This document shows positions 10,174 to 18,478 of a stretch of 19,372 nucleotides of DNA, in pieces. The position numbers and the translations under genes were made by a program. The stretch is from an uncultured Prevotella sp. (lineage in GTDB: Bacteria; Bacteroidota; Bacteroidia; Bacteroidales; Bacteroidaceae), in contig CAKQFW010000013.1 of assembly GCA_934230965.1 (NCBI GenBank), positions 1 to 19,372 on the forward strand. Reading direction: 5' to 3'. The notes under the pieces were generated by a model that was not told the DNA's origin, ran no database searches, and worked only from the letters and a program-made list of their open reading frames with translations. Within the stretch, counting starts at the first letter, position 1; every line of letters starts with the position of its first letter.

Positions 10174-10190
10174 GCAATGACGAAACAATA

Positions 10191-10222
10191 TTCATCACGC
10201 GCTTTGCGTTGATGAGTTTTTA
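10191..10222 (+). terminator. Rho-independent terminator candidate after ftsW
   Basis: A stem of TTCATCA + CGC (10191-10200) with GCG + TGATGAG (10206-10216), a single bulged T at 10209 and the loop GCTTT is followed by TTTTT (10217-10221). It starts 17 bases after the ftsW stop and would close the rsmH-ftsW unit. Confidence 0.6.
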
Positions 10223-10230
10223 TCGTAAGC

Positions 10231-10296
10231 ATAAAATAACGCGAATTGCATATTTATACAACCTCATGCATAAATATACAATTCGCGTTTTTATTT
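10231..10296. terminator. Bidirectional terminator between convergent ftsW and susD
   Basis: A long hairpin pairs ACGCGAATTG (10239-10248) with CAATTCGCGT (10279-10288), then continues across one mismatch with ATATTTAT (10250-10257) / ATAAATAT (10270-10277), a second mismatch, and CA/TG, with a six-base loop at 10261-10266. The plus side ends in TTTTTATTT (10288-10296); the minus side ends in TTATTTTAT (10239-10231). It therefore suits both converging transcripts. Confidence 0.8.
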
Positions 10297-10320
10297 CTAC
10301 AACAGAGCATTAATTAATTA

Positions 10321-11952
10321 TTATTTTGTTTCATACTCGGGGTTTTGTGTCAAGCCACCATTTAGGTCGATGGCCTTTTGTGGAATGGGAAAGACGATAG
10401 AAGCTTGTTTGGCATCAAGCTGACTGGGGGTATGAATGTCGTAGGCCTGGGTGAAGCGCCCAAAGCGGATGAGGTCTTGGCGGCGCCAGCCCTCCCATGC
10501 CAATTCCAGTAGGCGCTCGTTGAGAATATTGTCGAGCGTAGCCGCCTTCTCGGCCATGCCCACACGACGTCGAACAGCGTTAAACGGTTCGTCGCCACTT
10601 TCGCCATTGCGCACTAAGGCCTCGGCCTTCATCAGTAGCACATCGGCATAACGATACAGCACAATATCGTTGTTAGGCAGTCGGCCATCGGCATAGGCAG
10701 TGCGGTCTACCTCATATTTCTTCATACGTGCACCCGCTGTCTCAATATATTTGCTGGCCGTAAGGTTCTGTTCTACAGCCAAGGGCTCATATTTCAGTGG
10801 GGTGCCATCGTCGAGCATCACCTCTTTACCATCGACCACCACTTTTCCTGTGTAGAAGTTATAGTCGAGTCGGGCATCGGGGCTGCTGGTGCCATAACCA
10901 TACACCGCCATGGTGTGCAGTGTGGCGCACGGCCCATTTTCAGAAGCGCCACCATAGGCACCGCCATGCGCATAGTGGCGCGAGCGGAAGAGGTAGTGAA
11001 ACTCGTTAGGATAAATCATCTTATCCATCGGAATTGTAAAGATATTTTCTACTGAGTTTTCGTTATGTACGGCAAAGTTTTGCGTATAGTCGGAGGCCAG
11101 CGTGTAGCCACTTTGTGCAATGAGGTTGCAATAGTGTACACAGGTTTGCCAGGCGTTAAGTTGCTGCCCGTCAACATTGAAGAAGATGCTGGAGCCGGAG
11201 GCGTTGGGGGCTGTGGTCCAGTAGTCGTTGGTATACACCTCGGCGTTGAGTGCCAACTTAGCCAGTAAGAACCACACCACGGGGCGCGTTACACGCCCAT
11301 AGCTATTGCCCTCAAGGTTGCTGTGCGCATTATCGAGCAAGGGCTCGGCAGCTTGCAGTTCGCTTATGATATAGCGAAACATCGTGCTACGGTCACTCTG
11401 TCGGGTTTCGGCAATGGTTTGGTCGGCCTTCTGCATAAGAGGCACACGCCCAAACATATCCATAGCATAATAATAGAACATGGCCCTTACCGCCCGCACC
11501 TCGGCCTTATAGGCTTGCTGCTGCGTGGGGCTAAGCAACTGTGCATGCTGATCGATGGTTTCGAGCGAGCGCGTAGCCAGCACTATCACCTTATACAGAT
11601 ATTTCCATACGTTATACAGTTCGGTATCGGAGGCTGTCCAGCGGTGGTTGTACATATTTTTCCATAGGCCACCATCATACCAGTCGCCACCACGAATTGG
11701 GATGATAGCCTCGTCGGTGGTAAACGTATTGTAATCGTAAATGCCACGGCAGGTGCCTTGCAGCCCCTCGCCCTCTTCATGGGCGCCGATATAATTGTAC
11801 AGCGATGCCACTGCATTAACATAAAGGCTGTTGGCCGAGTCGTATATCTCTTTTTCAGGAACCTGATCTTTAGGATGTTCGTCAAGGCAAGCGGTGAGCG
11901 AGAGCGACAAGCAACAGAGGGTCACCGCGAAAAATATATTTGTTCGTTTCAT
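10321..11952 (-). CDS. SusD/RagB-family nutrient-binding surface lipoprotein
   Basis: SusD-family proteins are surface lipoproteins that form the lid of the SusC importer and capture glycans or peptides. The 543 residues begin with a lipoprotein signal (hydrophobic core 5-20, lipobox LTAC with the lipidated Cys at 22), followed by the acidic LDEHPKD, which is consistent with surface export. Typical family stretches are FTTDEAIIPIRGGDWYDGG (77-95), the helical repeat EVRAVRAMFYYYAMDMFGRVP (151-171), RYADVLLMKAEALVRNG with ERLLELAWEGWRRQDLIRFG, and the C-terminal FPIPQKAIDLNGGLTQNPEY. It lies 30 bases downstream of susC in the same operon. The substrate cannot be told: no glycoside hydrolase, peptidase or sensor is adjacent. 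Confidence 0.95.
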   Translation of the reverse strand: MKRTNIFFAVTLCCLSLSLTACLDEHPKDQVPEKEIYDSANSLYVNAVASLYNYIGAHEEGEGLQGTCRGIYDYNTFTTDEAIIPIRGGDWYDGGLWKNMYNHRWTASDTELYNVWKYLYKVIVLATRSLETIDQHAQLLSPTQQQAYKAEVRAVRAMFYYYAMDMFGRVPLMQKADQTIAETRQSDRSTMFRYIISELQAAEPLLDNAHSNLEGNSYGRVTRPVVWFLLAKLALNAEVYTNDYWTTAPNASGSSIFFNVDGQQLNAWQTCVHYCNLIAQSGYTLASDYTQNFAVHNENSVENIFTIPMDKMIYPNEFHYLFRSRHYAHGGAYGGASENGPCATLHTMAVYGYGTSSPDARLDYNFYTGKVVVDGKEVMLDDGTPLKYEPLAVEQNLTASKYIETAGARMKKYEVDRTAYADGRLPNNDIVLYRYADVLLMKAEALVRNGESGDEPFNAVRRRVGMAEKAATLDNILNERLLELAWEGWRRQDLIRFGRFTQAYDIHTPSQLDAKQASIVFPIPQKAIDLNGGLTQNPEYETK

Positions 11953-11982
11953 GATGTAATCAAGTAAAAAAAACGGTTCGTA

Positions 11983-14712
11983 TCAAAACTGCATGCTCAG
12001 CCCCATTGAAAAGGTGCGATAGGTGGGATAGCAACGTTTGTCGTCGATGCCCAAGGTTGAGTTCATTACATACGAGTTGATCATAGGCGTTACGCCGCTA
12101 TAGCCAGTGATGGTGGCCAGATTGTTTACGCTGCATGATAGGCGCAACGAGCGCACCACGCGCGACTTGATGGGCACGTTATAACCCACGGTAAGACACT
12201 CGATGTTAAGATAATCGGCACGCTCTAACCAATAGTCAGACACATTTTGGTCAACAATATTACGCTCGGGTGCCCCCTTCAGCACATTGTAGACGGGGAA
12301 CGACGACATATTGTTGAAAGCCAACGCCGTGCCATTAAATATTTTATGGCCGAAGGCGCCATTCATTTGCAACGACAGGTAGAACTGACGGTAGCGCAGC
12401 GAGATATTAGAACCCAGCGTAGCCTTCGGCGTAGCTTGTCCGCAGATACGTCGGTCGCCACCATCGCCAAAGTCGATGGTGCCATCGCCGTCAAGGTCGG
12501 CGATATCATATTTCATGGTGCCCTGTTCGTCTTTATACAACCCTGTGCAGTGGGGCAAGTAGAACACGCCGAGGGGCTGACCCACAATTTGATAGAGCAC
12601 ATGGTTATTGTCGCCACCATTCTGCCCGGCACCATCTATCGATCCCATTGCGGTGATGGGCGCTGCCGACATATCCATGCCTTTATATTGTCCCGACAAC
12701 GACAGCAGTTTGTTCTTTTGGAACGAGAGATTTAGGTTGATATTGAGGTCGATGTCGCGAGTTTGAACAGGGGCTATCGAGAAGCCAATCTCAAAGCCTT
12801 GGTTCGACATTGAGCCTATGTTTGCCAGCAACTTATCGTAGACGAAGGGCGGCACGGGCACATCGTAGGCATATAGCATATCGGTGGTCTTTGAGTAGTA
12901 ATATTCGGCCGTGAGCATCAGGCGGTTATGCCACAGACCTATCTCGCCACCAATGTTAAAGGTAGACTTGGTTTCCCACTTCAAATCGGGGTTGTTGTTG
13001 CGTATGGCACCCAGCGTTACAGTGGGTGTATTGTTTACAGGCACGATGCCCGTTTGCTGCACATTATCCATGGTGGTGTAGGCGCTGATACCACCCAAGT
13101 TGCCCGACTGGCCATAGCCCATGCGCAACTTCAAGGTGCTGATGCCTTTCACCGTGTGCATAAAGGGTTCTTTCAACACATTCCACTCGCCAGATATTGA
13201 GGGAAAGATGCCCCACGTATGGTCGTCGCCTACCATCGACGAGCCGTCGGCACGAAGCGTGGCCGTGAGCACATAGCGGTTGAAGAGGGTATAAGCAGCA
13301 TTGGCCATGAACGAGCCGAGGGTTTGGTCGTCGTAGCTGCTCGACGTGCCTCCATAGGGGCGAGAGGCCGTAGCACCAATATTGTCGTAACCAAAAACGT
13401 TGGTAGTGATGCCTTTAGCACGTGACCAAAAGGCTGAGCGCTCTTGCTTATGATACTCGGCGGCAGCGGCAGCCGACAGGGCATGGGGGCCACTGGTGTG
13501 TGAATAGTTGAGCGAGAGATTAGCCAAATACTCTTGCTTTTTAAACTCGCCACGATACACATTGCCTTGCGCCCATACCCAGGTGGGACAAAACTCGGCG
13601 TTCTCGGTTGACGCATGCGAATAGCTGCCGAAAGCAGCGAGGGTGAGCGAGGGTGCTAAGCGGTATTCAAGGCGTAGGTGGGTGTTGAAATATATTTCTT
13701 TTTGGTCTTTACGTTCGGCCAACACCGCCTTGGGCGGATTTATCTGATAGGCATTGCCGTTCTTTATCCAATTGCCATTGGCATCGCGCCCCGACGGATA
13801 GGTGGGGTTCTGACAGGCAGCCGAATAGAACAGCGCCTTAGTGTCGAAGATATCGTTGTTGCGGAAGGTAGAGCCAAAGACGCCAAACTGCCCTGTCAGG
13901 CGGTCATCAAAAGCATGCTGGGTGACATCAATCTTGGCCACCAAGTTGGTATAATCTTTGTCTTTAATAATGGTATTGTGGTCAATGTATCCGAACGAGG
14001 CACGATAATTCGACTTCTCGGTTCCGCCACTAAAGGCCAGGAAATGGTTCTGCACGAAGCCCGTGCGGGTGATGGCATCGAAGAAATTGGTGTTATAACC
14101 GCCATCATTGGCATGAACACCAAGGGTTCGAGCCGTGGAAAGATATTCGGAACCCGACAGCATCTCTAATTTGCGCGCCATGGTTTCGAAGCCAATGTTG
14201 GCCTCATAAGATATCTGAAAGCCGCCACCTGTGCCCTTCTTGGTCTTTACCTCAATCACGCCCGAGGCACCACGCGAACCGTAGAGGGCGGTTTCAGAAG
14301 CGTTTTTCAGCACGGCAAGACTCTCAATATCGGCAGGATAGATGGTTGAAAGGGTGGCAATGTCGGAGGTTACACCATCAATGATAACAAGAGGGTCGTT
14401 ACCACCAATAATTGAGGTAGTACCGCGCACACGTACAGCGCTAAGCTGAGCCATGCGGTCCATGCCATTTGAGGTAACGTTTACACCCGCAGCATTGCCT
14501 TGCAACACATCGAGGGCATTGTTTACGATACCTTTTTGATGAACAGTGAGGTCGGTAGAGATGGTGTCGCGTAACACACTGAGGCTTTGCATCTGCACCT
14601 GTGCCTCGGCGGTGCTATGGCAAGCCAAAGCCGCTATAAGCAACAGGCCAACGGGCGATGTTAACCGTGAGTTATAGCGATGGTTTTGTAGCGTTATCAT
14701 TGGTTTCATCAT
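11983..14712 (-). CDS. SusC/RagA-family TonB-dependent outer-membrane transporter (short form)
   Basis: SusC proteins are TonB-driven outer-membrane channels that work with a SusD partner. The 909 residues show a signal peptide (core about 20-31, probable cleavage after AEA at 37), a plug with VRVRGTTSIIGGNDPLVIID (93-112) and the SusC signature around DIESLAVLKNASETALYGSRGASGVIEV (128-155), then a beta-barrel ending in a terminal phenylalanine (LSMGLSMQF), typical of outer-membrane insertion. The usual N-terminal carboxypeptidase-regulatory-like domain is absent: only about 55 residues separate the signal peptide from the plug, and no classic VVVVGYGTQ-type TonB box is seen. The susD gene follows after 30 bases. 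The pair interrupts the dcw cluster on the opposite strand. Confidence 0.95.
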   Translation of the reverse strand: MMKPMITLQNHRYNSRLTSPVGLLLIAALACHSTAEAQVQMQSLSVLRDTISTDLTVHQKGIVNNALDVLQGNAAGVNVTSNGMDRMAQLSAVRVRGTTSIIGGNDPLVIIDGVTSDIATLSTIYPADIESLAVLKNASETALYGSRGASGVIEVKTKKGTGGGFQISYEANIGFETMARKLEMLSGSEYLSTARTLGVHANDGGYNTNFFDAITRTGFVQNHFLAFSGGTEKSNYRASFGYIDHNTIIKDKDYTNLVAKIDVTQHAFDDRLTGQFGVFGSTFRNNDIFDTKALFYSAACQNPTYPSGRDANGNWIKNGNAYQINPPKAVLAERKDQKEIYFNTHLRLEYRLAPSLTLAAFGSYSHASTENAEFCPTWVWAQGNVYRGEFKKQEYLANLSLNYSHTSGPHALSAAAAAEYHKQERSAFWSRAKGITTNVFGYDNIGATASRPYGGTSSSYDDQTLGSFMANAAYTLFNRYVLTATLRADGSSMVGDDHTWGIFPSISGEWNVLKEPFMHTVKGISTLKLRMGYGQSGNLGGISAYTTMDNVQQTGIVPVNNTPTVTLGAIRNNNPDLKWETKSTFNIGGEIGLWHNRLMLTAEYYYSKTTDMLYAYDVPVPPFVYDKLLANIGSMSNQGFEIGFSIAPVQTRDIDLNINLNLSFQKNKLLSLSGQYKGMDMSAAPITAMGSIDGAGQNGGDNNHVLYQIVGQPLGVFYLPHCTGLYKDEQGTMKYDIADLDGDGTIDFGDGGDRRICGQATPKATLGSNISLRYRQFYLSLQMNGAFGHKIFNGTALAFNNMSSFPVYNVLKGAPERNIVDQNVSDYWLERADYLNIECLTVGYNVPIKSRVVRSLRLSCSVNNLATITGYSGVTPMINSYVMNSTLGIDDKRCYPTYRTFSMGLSMQF

Positions 14713-14757
14713 AGTTTGTAATGTTGAAAAAAAGTGTTATCGTTTTTAGTTATGTTG

Positions 14758-14765
14758 CAAAGATA
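14758..14765 (-). promoter_or_regulatory. -7 element of the susC promoter
   Basis: On the minus strand 14765-14758 reads TATCTTTG, matching TAnnTTTG and placed 45 bases before the susC ATG at 14712. No clear TTTG lies 19-21 bases further upstream (about 14785-14788 reads ATAA), so a weaker or activated promoter is likely. Confidence 0.55.
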
Positions 14766-14816
14766 GAACTTTTTGCGAATAGTTTTATTACTCGCCAATA
14801 AAAAAGAAAAAAATAT

Positions 14817-14847
14817 TTTGTCTTTCAACTGATTTGCAGTATCTTTG
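14817..14847 (+). promoter_or_regulatory. Canonical Bacteroidota promoter of the murG-murC-ftsQ-ftsA unit
   Basis: TTTG (14817-14820), a 19-base spacer and TATCTTTG (14840-14847) fit the Bacteroidota -33/-7 consensus exactly. A start a few bases downstream would give a leader of about 100 bases before the murG ATG at 14957. An A-rich tract (14798-14813) lies just upstream. This gives the second half of the dcw cluster its own promoter. Confidence 0.85.
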
Positions 14848-14956
14848 CATTAAATAGGCATATTCTGGCACAACGTCGGAAGAATTACTTACACCTTATT
14901 ATATAATATAGCACATACAGGCAGGCGAAACACACCTACCCTTCAACATAAAAAAG

Positions 14957-16075
14957 ATGGAGAAGCAATTAAGAATTATCATCAGCGGTGGCGGAACAGG
15001 AGGACACATCTTTCCCGCCGTTTCCATAGCCAATGCCATTAAGGCAAAGCACCCTGAGGCCGACATTCTATTTGTAGGCGCACTGGGACGAATGGAGATG
15101 CAACGTGTGCCCGCAGCAGGATATCGCATCATAGGTCTGCCCGTAAGGGGCTTCATACGTCCGCTGTGGTCGCCCAAAAACATTGGCGTGGCGCTCGACT
15201 TTTTGAAGAGCAAACGCATGGTGAAGAAAACCATTAAAGAGTTTAACCCACAGGTGGCAGTAGGCGTAGGCGGATATGCCAGCGGCGCCACACTGGATGC
15301 AGCCAGCAGCATGGGCATACCGTGCTTGATACAAGAGCAAAACTCGTATGCTGGCGTTACCAATAAGCACTTGGCACATAAGGCCGAGAAGATATGCGTG
15401 GCCTACGACGGCATGGAGCGTTTCTTCCCCGCCGACAAGATTATAAAGACGGGCAACCCCGTGCGACAGGCGCTGCTTGAAACCAACATTAGCCGCGAAG
15501 AGGCTATCAAGAGTTTTGGTCTCGACCCACAAAAGCGCACCATCTTGCTGGTGGGCGGAAGCTTAGGCGCTCGCACTATTAACGAGAGCGTGCTGCAACA
15601 TCTCGACTTGGTTGAGGAGAGCGGTGTGCAGTTTATTTGGCAAACGGGCAAATATTACAGCGCCGCCATTGGCGAGCAACTGAAAGCCCACAAGCCACTG
15701 CCCATGCTGAAGGCTACCGACTTTATTGCCGACATGGGCGCTGCCTATAAGGCTGCCGACCTCGTCATCAGCCGTGCTGGTGCCAGCTCTATCAGCGAGT
15801 TCTGCCTCATCGGCAAACCCGTTATCTTGGTACCCTCGCCCAATGTGGCCGAAGACCATCAAACCAAGAACGCCATGGCGCTGGTGAACAAAGATGCCGC
15901 CCTATATGTAAAAGATGCCGACGCGCCACAGCAGCTGCTAAAGCTGGCCGTTGACACCGTAAACAACGCCGCCCGCCTGCAACAGCTGAGCGAGAACGTA
16001 AAGAAACTGGGACAGGCCGACTCGGCCGAAATCATTGCCAACGAGGTGCTGAAGTTGGCAGCCCGAAAAGGCTAA
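14957..16075 (+). CDS. murG: Undecaprenyl-PP-MurNAc-pentapeptide GlcNAc transferase MurG
   Basis: MurG, a peripheral inner-membrane GT-B glycosyltransferase, adds GlcNAc from UDP-GlcNAc to lipid I to make lipid II. Its 372 residues carry the N-domain glycine loop GGGTGGH (11-17) with the conserved histidine, GVGGYASG (103-110), EQNSYAG (127-133), the second glycine loop GGSLGA (200-205), and the UDP-binding SRAGASSISE (272-281) followed by PSPNVAEDHQTKNA (293-306). The start at 14957 gives the normal short N-terminus before the glycine loop. It is the first gene of the second dcw unit, transcribed from a strong consensus promoter, and lies 51 bases before murC. Confidence 0.97.
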   Translation: MEKQLRIIISGGGTGGHIFPAVSIANAIKAKHPEADILFVGALGRMEMQRVPAAGYRIIGLPVRGFIRPLWSPKNIGVALDFLKSKRMVKKTIKEFNPQVAVGVGGYASGATLDAASSMGIPCLIQEQNSYAGVTNKHLAHKAEKICVAYDGMERFFPADKIIKTGNPVRQALLETNISREEAIKSFGLDPQKRTILLVGGSLGARTINESVLQHLDLVEESGVQFIWQTGKYYSAAIGEQLKAHKPLPMLKATDFIADMGAAYKAADLVISRAGASSISEFCLIGKPVILVPSPNVAEDHQTKNAMALVNKDAALYVKDADAPQQLLKLAVDTVNNAARLQQLSENVKKLGQADSAEIIANEVLKLAARKG

Positions 16076-16126: not shown

Positions 16127-17408
16127 ATGGATATTAAAGATATTAAAGCCGTATACTTTGTAGGAGCTGGCGGCATAGGCATGAGCGCCATCGCACGCTA
16201 CTTCATACGTAAAGGCTTGGTAGTGGCCGGTTATGACAAAACGCCCAGCGACTTGACACGTCAGTTAGAGAAAGAGGGCATGCTCATTCACTATGAAGAG
16301 AACATCGACGAGATACCTCAGGCTTGTCGCAACGCGCAGTCGTGCCTCGTTATCTACACGCCCGCCATACCACAAGAGCACAAAGAGCTGCAATACTTCC
16401 GCGAGGGAGGCTTCACCATTGAGAAGCGCGCTCAGGTGCTCGGCACTCTTACACGCACACACAAAGGTCTGTGCTTTGCTGGAACACACGGCAAGACCAC
16501 CACATCTACCATGTGTGCACACATCATGCACCAGAGCCATCTCGACTGCAACGCCTTCTTGGGCGGCATCTCGAAAAACTATGGCACTAACTATATCTTA
16601 TCAGACACCAGCGACTATGTTGTGATTGAGGCCGACGAGTTTGACCGCTCGTTCCACTGGCTGCGCCCTTGGATGAGTGTCATCACCTCAACCGACCCCG
16701 ACCACCTCGACATCTATGGCACTAAGGAGGCTTACCTTGAAAGCTTCCGCCATTATACCACCCTCATTCAGCCGGGCGGAGCACATCGTGATTGAGAATG
16801 GTGAGATTACCTTCGACTTTGTATCGCCCATCGAAACTGTAAAGGGCATACAACTAGGACAGCCCATACCCATCAACATTGAAAATGGTGTGGCAGCTAT
16901 GGCTATGGCACAGCTCAACGGATGCACAGCCGAAGAACTAAAGTATGGCATGAAGACCTTCCACGGCGCACAGCGTCGTTTCGACTTCAAGATTAAGTCC
17001 GACAAACTGGTGTTCTTGTCTGACTATGCTCATCACCCAAAGGAGATTTACCAAAGCGCAAAAAGCATACGCGAGCTGTATAAGAACCGCAAGATTACGG
17101 CCATCTTCCAGCCGCACCTCTATACTCGCACACGCGACTTCTACAAAGACTTTGCCGATGCGCTGAGTCAGCTCGACGAGGTAATATTGTGCGACATCTA
17201 CCCCGCACGCGAACAACCCATACCGGGCGTCACCTCAAAGCTCATCTACGACAACCTGAAGCCTGGCGTAGAAAAGAGCATGATACATAAGGAAGACGTG
17301 CTCGACCTGGTGAAGCATCGCGACTTCGACGTGCTCATCGTGCTCGGCGCTGGCGACCTCGACAATTATGTGCCTCAGATAGCTAAGATATTAGAAAGCA
17401 AAGGATGA
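16127..17408 (+). pseudogene. murC: UDP-MurNAc:L-alanine ligase MurC, disrupted by an internal deletion and frameshift
   Basis: MurC adds L-alanine to UDP-MurNAc and starts the stem peptide; it is normally essential. The first frame (16127-16795, 222 residues) has GAGGIGMSA (13-21), the ATP loop GTHGKTTT (119-126), EADEFDRSFHW and DPDHLDIYGT, then breaks after LIQPGGA and stops with TGA at 16793-16795. Homology resumes in another frame at about 16776 (AEHIVIENGEITFDF) and runs to 17408 with GAQRRFDF, DYAHHPKEI, FQPHLYTRTRDFYKD and IYPAREQPIPGVTSKLIYD. The two pieces add up to about 429 residues; Bacteroidota MurC is about 455-460. So roughly 28-29 codons of the central domain are missing as well as the frame. 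The 3' end overlaps ftsQ in ATGA. A sequencing or assembly error is possible. Confidence 0.88.
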
Positions 17409-18478
17409 AGTGGAAGAAAGCACTGCTGATCATCGCCAATCTCGTACTGGGAACGTATCTGGTTTTCGCCTTCACGGTGTTTAACAAGCCAGACGAAACC
17501 ATGCGCGTATGCACAAAAGCAAACATCAGCATCGACGATGAGCGGACAGGTGGTTTCATCGACGCAAAAGAAATAAGCAAACGCCTGAAGCAGGCCGATA
17601 TGTTTCCGCTGGGAAAGCAAATGCAGCACATCAACGCGCGAAACATTGAAGAGATGCTGAAGAGAAGCGCCTTTGTAAAGACCGCCGAATGTTATAAAAC
17701 AGAAGACGGACAGGTATATATCTCTATCAGTCAGCTCACGCCCGTAGTAAGGGTGAAAGCCGAAAACGGCGACGACTATTATCTTGACGATAAAGACTGC
17801 ATCATGCCCAACTCGGCATACACCAGCGATCTCGTCATCGCGACAGGTAATATCAGTCGCACGTTTGCCGTAAAATATCTCTCGCCACTTGCAAAAGCTA
17901 TCATGGCAAACGACCTGTGGCACAACCTGGTGGAACAGATTAACGTGCTGCCCAACGCCGACATTGAGATTGTGCCACGCATAGGCGACCACATCGTGTG
18001 CCTGGGTCCGCTGCCCGAAGCTGCTAATAAGGAGAAACGACAGAAACTTATCAACGAGTTTGTTGACAAGAAGTTTACCCGACTGGAGAAATTCTACCAC
18101 TATGGTCTGTCGCAAGCAGGATGGAACAAATACGATTATATCAACATCGAATTTGACAACCAAATCATCTGCAAACGGCACTCAGACAAACAACGCCCTA
18201 TGCCTACGCCACCTGTCGTAACGAAGCCCGACTCGGCAGCCATCAAGAAGGCAGCCAATGCGCAGCCATCAAACACAAAACCCGAGCCACAAAAGGCTAC
18301 AACGCAAAAGGCACAACCCCAAAAGGGTGAAACTAAAAGGGTAGAGAACAAAAAGGCAGAAGCTAAAAAAGCCGAACAGAAAAAGGCAGAGAACAAAAAT
18401 ACCGAACAGAAAAAGGCTAATAATGCAAAAGCGACAACAAAGAAGACGCCAAGCAAAAAGCCCGTCGCTCATCAATAA
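17405..18478 (+). CDS. ftsQ: Cell division protein FtsQ/DivIB with lysine-rich C-terminal tail
   Basis: FtsQ is a bitopic divisome scaffold that recruits the FtsL/FtsB-type partners. The 357 residues show a short cytoplasmic KWKK, one membrane helix (about 6-25), a periplasmic POTRA-like part (about 40-110, with FIDAKEISKRLKQ and RNIEEMLKRSAFVKTAECY) and a beta-rich domain (about 115-258) ending near DYINIEFDNQIICKR. The call rests on position between murC and ftsA, topology and these Bacteroidota-type segments. The last 100 residues (about 259-357) are a low-complexity Lys/Ala/Gln/Glu/Pro tail with repeated KKAE and QKKA units, predicted to lie in the periplasm. The start overlaps the murC stop in ATGA, implying coupling. 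Confidence 0.9.
   Translation: MKWKKALLIIANLVLGTYLVFAFTVFNKPDETMRVCTKANISIDDERTGGFIDAKEISKRLKQADMFPLGKQMQHINARNIEEMLKRSAFVKTAECYKTEDGQVYISISQLTPVVRVKAENGDDYYLDDKDCIMPNSAYTSDLVIATGNISRTFAVKYLSPLAKAIMANDLWHNLVEQINVLPNADIEIVPRIGDHIVCLGPLPEAANKEKRQKLINEFVDKKFTRLEKFYHYGLSQAGWNKYDYINIEFDNQIICKRHSDKQRPMPTPPVVTKPDSAAIKKAANAQPSNTKPEPQKATTQKAQPQKGETKRVENKKAEAKKAEQKKAENKNTEQKKANNAKATTKKTPSKKPVAHQ

Follow-up and report, generated by a model that had tools for sequence, protein, structure and literature searches.

The murC gene assembled in the 19,372-nucleotide stretch of DNA analysed here (the window) is broken by an internal, out-of-frame loss of 98 bases; this loss most likely arose from a read that was chimeric or damaged, from library amplification or from an error of local assembly, and does not reflect the only murC of a living cell. 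A sequence-only reading had reported a deletion at this place and had listed error, a degraded copy and odd biology as its possible causes. That observation is correct in essence and the list was the right one; on our best reading an artefact is the likeliest source, followed by a recent dead allele, with a working split ligase unlikely. The break is thus most likely an error or a rare dead copy and not new biology.

The break in murC and its intact relatives

MurC is essential for the cell. The broken gene lies at 16127-17408 on the plus strand, and both of its halves find their best match in the Prevotella type of MurC (TIGR01082), the UDP-N-acetylmuramate--L-alanine ligase. The 5' part (16127..16795, plus strand) encodes the N-terminal domain and the first part of the middle domain, that is, MurC residues 1-219 followed by three out-of-frame residues and a stop; it scores 173.1 bits over profile positions 2-204, matches PF01225 and part of PF08245, and contains AGTHGKTTT, in which GTHGKTT is the ATP-binding motif of MurC. 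The 3' part (16785..17408, plus strand, +1 frame) encodes the end of the middle domain and the C-terminal domain, scoring 150 bits over profile positions 251-443 and matching PF02875. Compared with the family, the window copy lacks 98 bases and its reading frame is lost within the middle domain, so that neither half reaches the curated cut-off of 335.1 bits and the three Mur ligase domains, all present in one chain in an intact database protein (P0002), are divided between two frames.

As previously read, the frame from 16127 runs through LIQPGGAHRD and stops at the TGA of 16793-16795. MurC similarity does resume in another frame, the +1 frame leading to the stop that ends at 17408, but it had been taken to restart at AEH, whereas it truly starts at IVIENGE (16785). 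The size of the loss had likewise been put too low, at 85-90 bases: the gene has 1279 coding bases against 1377 in intact relatives (stop codon excluded), a difference of 98. The missing block corresponds to about residues 220-252, within a middle domain that spans 118-294 of P0002, and of the 33 removed positions 17 did not vary among 20 aligned sequences taken from the 120 full-length matches listed. The loss shifts the frame and leaves a 5' product of 222 amino acids; read as assembled, murC would give no complete MurC, just this dead fragment carrying half of a middle domain. The structure model of intact P0002 had a mean pLDDT of 60.4, too poor to rely on. Within 16778-16795, GGAG is followed by a GTG at 16788, a possible re-initiation site that is probably accidental.

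Comparison with intact relatives bore out an internal, out-of-frame deletion. Two 459-residue proteins in the protein database, P0002 and P0003, are intact and 98% identical to the read-through of the window outside the gap; relatives with an uninterrupted murC, which the sequence-only reading had said would mark the break as an artefact, therefore exist at the protein level. Such near-identical intact proteins favour, without proving, either an artefact or a rare allele. Thirteen of the 14 loci of a first scan have murC over this region, uninterrupted in all 13, and the remaining locus (L011) begins inside murC. In a survey of the genus, 150 genomes drawn evenly from a larger group were searched with P0002 at E 1e-60 or better: 147 matched, and 145 gave one near-full-length match with no internal stops, murC being single-copy in these relatives. 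Two further genomes (G075 and G094) carried murC in two pieces on different contigs and three (G101, G104 and G105) had no match at E 1e-60; a search of these five genomes with the MurC profile returned nothing over the cut-off. Judged against the 145 of 150 genomes with one unbroken murC, the break is more than chance would give.

The fragment ends occurred in none of the 360 matches listed by three protein searches (the best 120 each of 8000, 5870 and 6487 candidates; 361 sequences with the read-through query included). In viral contigs, the junction 25-mer had 0 matches and a search with P0002 gave no locus; a plasmid search also returned no match. At the DNA level, 389 of 398 genus genomes from the larger group matched, the best at 83%, and DNA of the same species was not found among the 398; this best match was also the only genome among 60 relatives to pass E 1e-170.

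The murC locus and its conservation

The window is filled by a dcw cell-wall and division cluster in the order mraW, ftsL, ftsI, murE, mraY, murD, ftsW, a reversed SusD/SusC pair, murG, murC, an ftsQ-like gene and the start of ftsA. The cluster is of the Prevotella type and the organism is a Prevotella-like bacterium. Profile matches identified MurG, MurC, FtsL, the MraY-type family and SusC/SusD; the remaining dcw names were assigned from gene order and from reading the translations, and in four relatives the counterparts follow one another as they do here. In those four relatives murC likewise lies between murG and ftsQ. Directly upstream, murG (14957..16075, plus strand) is intact at 372 amino acids, scores 282.2 bits against a cut-off of 250.25 for TIGR01133, and is 71-87% identical to its counterparts in the four relatives. 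Downstream, the ftsQ-like gene (17405..18478, plus strand) is open and overlaps the murC stop codon; a gene in the same place in the four relatives is 51-73% identical over at least the first 259 residues. In a search with ftsQ the nearest relative was L001. A Pfam search with the ftsQ-like gene gave no match and NCBIfam only a chance-like match of its low-complexity tail; we take it to be ftsQ from its position. The rest of the dcw genes have open frames and align almost end to end with those of the four relatives, the exceptions being ftsL (the last 124-137 of 228 residues) and ftsQ (from about residue 260 of 357). In this comparison no second broken gene was seen besides murC in the 19.4-kb window.

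Ratios of dN/dS against the nearest relative compared (L041) were 0.044 for the 5' part of murC and 0.086 for the 3' part, compared with 0.058 for murG, 0.040 for murE, 0.062 for murD and 0.031 for mraY; saturation prevented a ratio for ftsQ against L041 and for every comparison with L043 or L044. The values for the murC parts are near the 0.031-0.062 of the neighbours, and the gene therefore shows little sign of decay at the sequence level, though its 3' part ranks highest among the six computable values.

Between ftsW and murG, at 10174-14956, the dcw cluster harbours the SusC/SusD-type outer-membrane pair (10321-11952 and 11983-14712, minus strand), with AT-rich gaps of 31% GC on its flanks. 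The ftsW and murG matches lie just 41-850 bp apart in the 14 relatives whose locus has both, and none of the 18 relative loci searched gave a SusC/SusD match at E 1e-5. The SusC-like protein (909 amino acids; 11983-14712) matches the plug and barrel families, with no N-terminal carboxypeptidase-like domain at E 1e-3; this domain is usual in SusC-like proteins.

Edges of the deletion and the GCGGAGC motif

The heptamer GCGGAGC is present at 16776-16782, as had been reported, along with the proposal that a second copy once bounded the lost segment. Alignment with 13 relatives and with P0002-P0006, together with an analysis of the edges, would place the junction at 16783..16785 (plus strand), with left-hand DNA up to 16783 or 16784 and right-hand DNA from 16783 or 16785; the exact edge depends on the strain's own codons and was placed from the sequences of relatives.

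The full-length MurC matches listed have Glu-Asn before IVIENGE, and the Ala-Glu-His of the window is therefore best read as left-hand DNA (GCG GAG CAC) one base out of frame. A frameshifted database murC, P0195, reads the left-hand stretch as QAEHSSFTLA, which agrees with this origin. Glu-Asn followed by Ile or Val stands at the right edge in all 120 full-length MurC matches listed, and Glu-Asn in 118 of the 120 C-fragment matches listed (one of the others has Ala-Asn and one was not scorable by pattern). A second GCGGAGC would require His, or another codon beginning with C, where the matches have Asn; since these matches read Asn and not His at the right edge, nothing points to a second copy.

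If the right edge is Glu-Asn, no coding tried gave the flanks more than 2 bp of homology, and about 16% of simulated random junctions reached 2 bp or more by chance. Scanning 16600-17000 for repeats, an approach blind to the missing block, turned up no pair bounding the junction. The edges thus seem to lack a repeat, and the direct-repeat mechanism was rejected because the proteins of relatives leave no place for a second copy. Were the deletion real, slipped-strand loss between two copies of GCGGAGC would still be a very improbable route, in spite of the copy at the junction. Glu-His does occur in two of the 13 more distant relatives (L002 and L008; the same two of 31 in a larger set), and if the strain too had Glu-His at its right edge, there would be room for a longer repeat and the question of the 7-mer would reopen.

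Origin of the break

An artefact would account for the near-identical intact P0002 and P0003, for the unbroken gene of 145 of 150 genomes and for fragment ends absent from the 360 matches listed; open dcw neighbours, low dN/dS and the removal of 33 positions, 17 of them invariant, lend it further support. Such an error would sit in a contig that otherwise looks sound, and this same soundness, with no other break in 19.4 kb and an assembly that is not poor overall, also counts against it, as does the form of the loss: a clean, repeat-less loss of 98 bases differs from the short indels that are the usual error of assemblers or long reads. The dN/dS of the 3' part, the highest of those computed, also speaks against an artefact. 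Reads carrying the deletion junction may well exist.

That assembly error often gives rise to false pseudogenes in public bacterial genomes is documented, in a study that did not assess metagenome-assembled genomes (PMC11017572). The window resembles such spurious pseudogenes in having a single disabling change in a conserved gene of which intact near-identical versions exist elsewhere, and differs from them in that the change is a 98-base loss and not a short indel or internal stop (PMC11017572). Literature searches found nothing on frameshifts in metagenome-assembled genomes and, by title, nothing relevant on amplification chimeras.

It is possible, though we think it doubtful, that the deletion is real and recent, made by repeat-independent end joining (blunt or with 1-2 bp) or by a replication error, and carried either by a minority of cells or by a strain with an intact murC elsewhere, the window copy being dead. 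The clean junction with no other break, and the good conservation of both halves, are as expected of a very young break; on the other side, the 145 genomes have one murC match each, the junction is missing from both the listed protein matches and the viral contigs, and loss of a sole murC in this way should be lethal.

That both halves are made, by re-initiation near the TGA or by frameshifting, and cooperate without the missing block is highly unlikely. The GTG at 16788 lies in the second frame and overlaps the first stop region (TGA at 16793-16795), with GGAG a few bases earlier, as re-initiation would have it, but the middle domain has lost about 33 residues, including 17 that are invariant across the 20 aligned sequences; a split of this kind occurs in none of the 145 relatives whose murC is whole, and near-identical intact versions of MurC exist. 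Less credible still is a Prevotella-like strain with a truly split and shortened chromosomal murC, in which the two halves jointly, or an unrecognised ligase encoded elsewhere in the genome, would add L-alanine. The Mpl-like substitute proposed earlier drew no support: Mpl exceeded its curated cut-off in none of 14 relative genomes (against one of 14 in a control set), and the murC parts scored 64.9 and 36.2 bits for TIGR01081 (Mpl) against a cut-off of 388.7. Mpl, which ligates a tripeptide, would not stand in for MurC.

We therefore return to a technical error as the probable cause, and the case serves mainly as a caution: before biological conclusions are drawn from an essential gene that is broken in assembled DNA, the gene should be compared with intact versions of near-identical sequence. 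A deletion that proved real and fixed would speak to the question of whether peptidoglycan can be made without a whole MurC.

A second, different frameshift is present in a near-identical murC, that of P0195, which shares 99% identity with the window across residues 1-192. As in the window, the frame is lost within the middle domain; unlike the window, P0195 loses it elsewhere, after residue 192, and keeps the start of the missing segment in the wrong frame. This sequence comes from a 16-kb contig and belongs to a cluster of four members.
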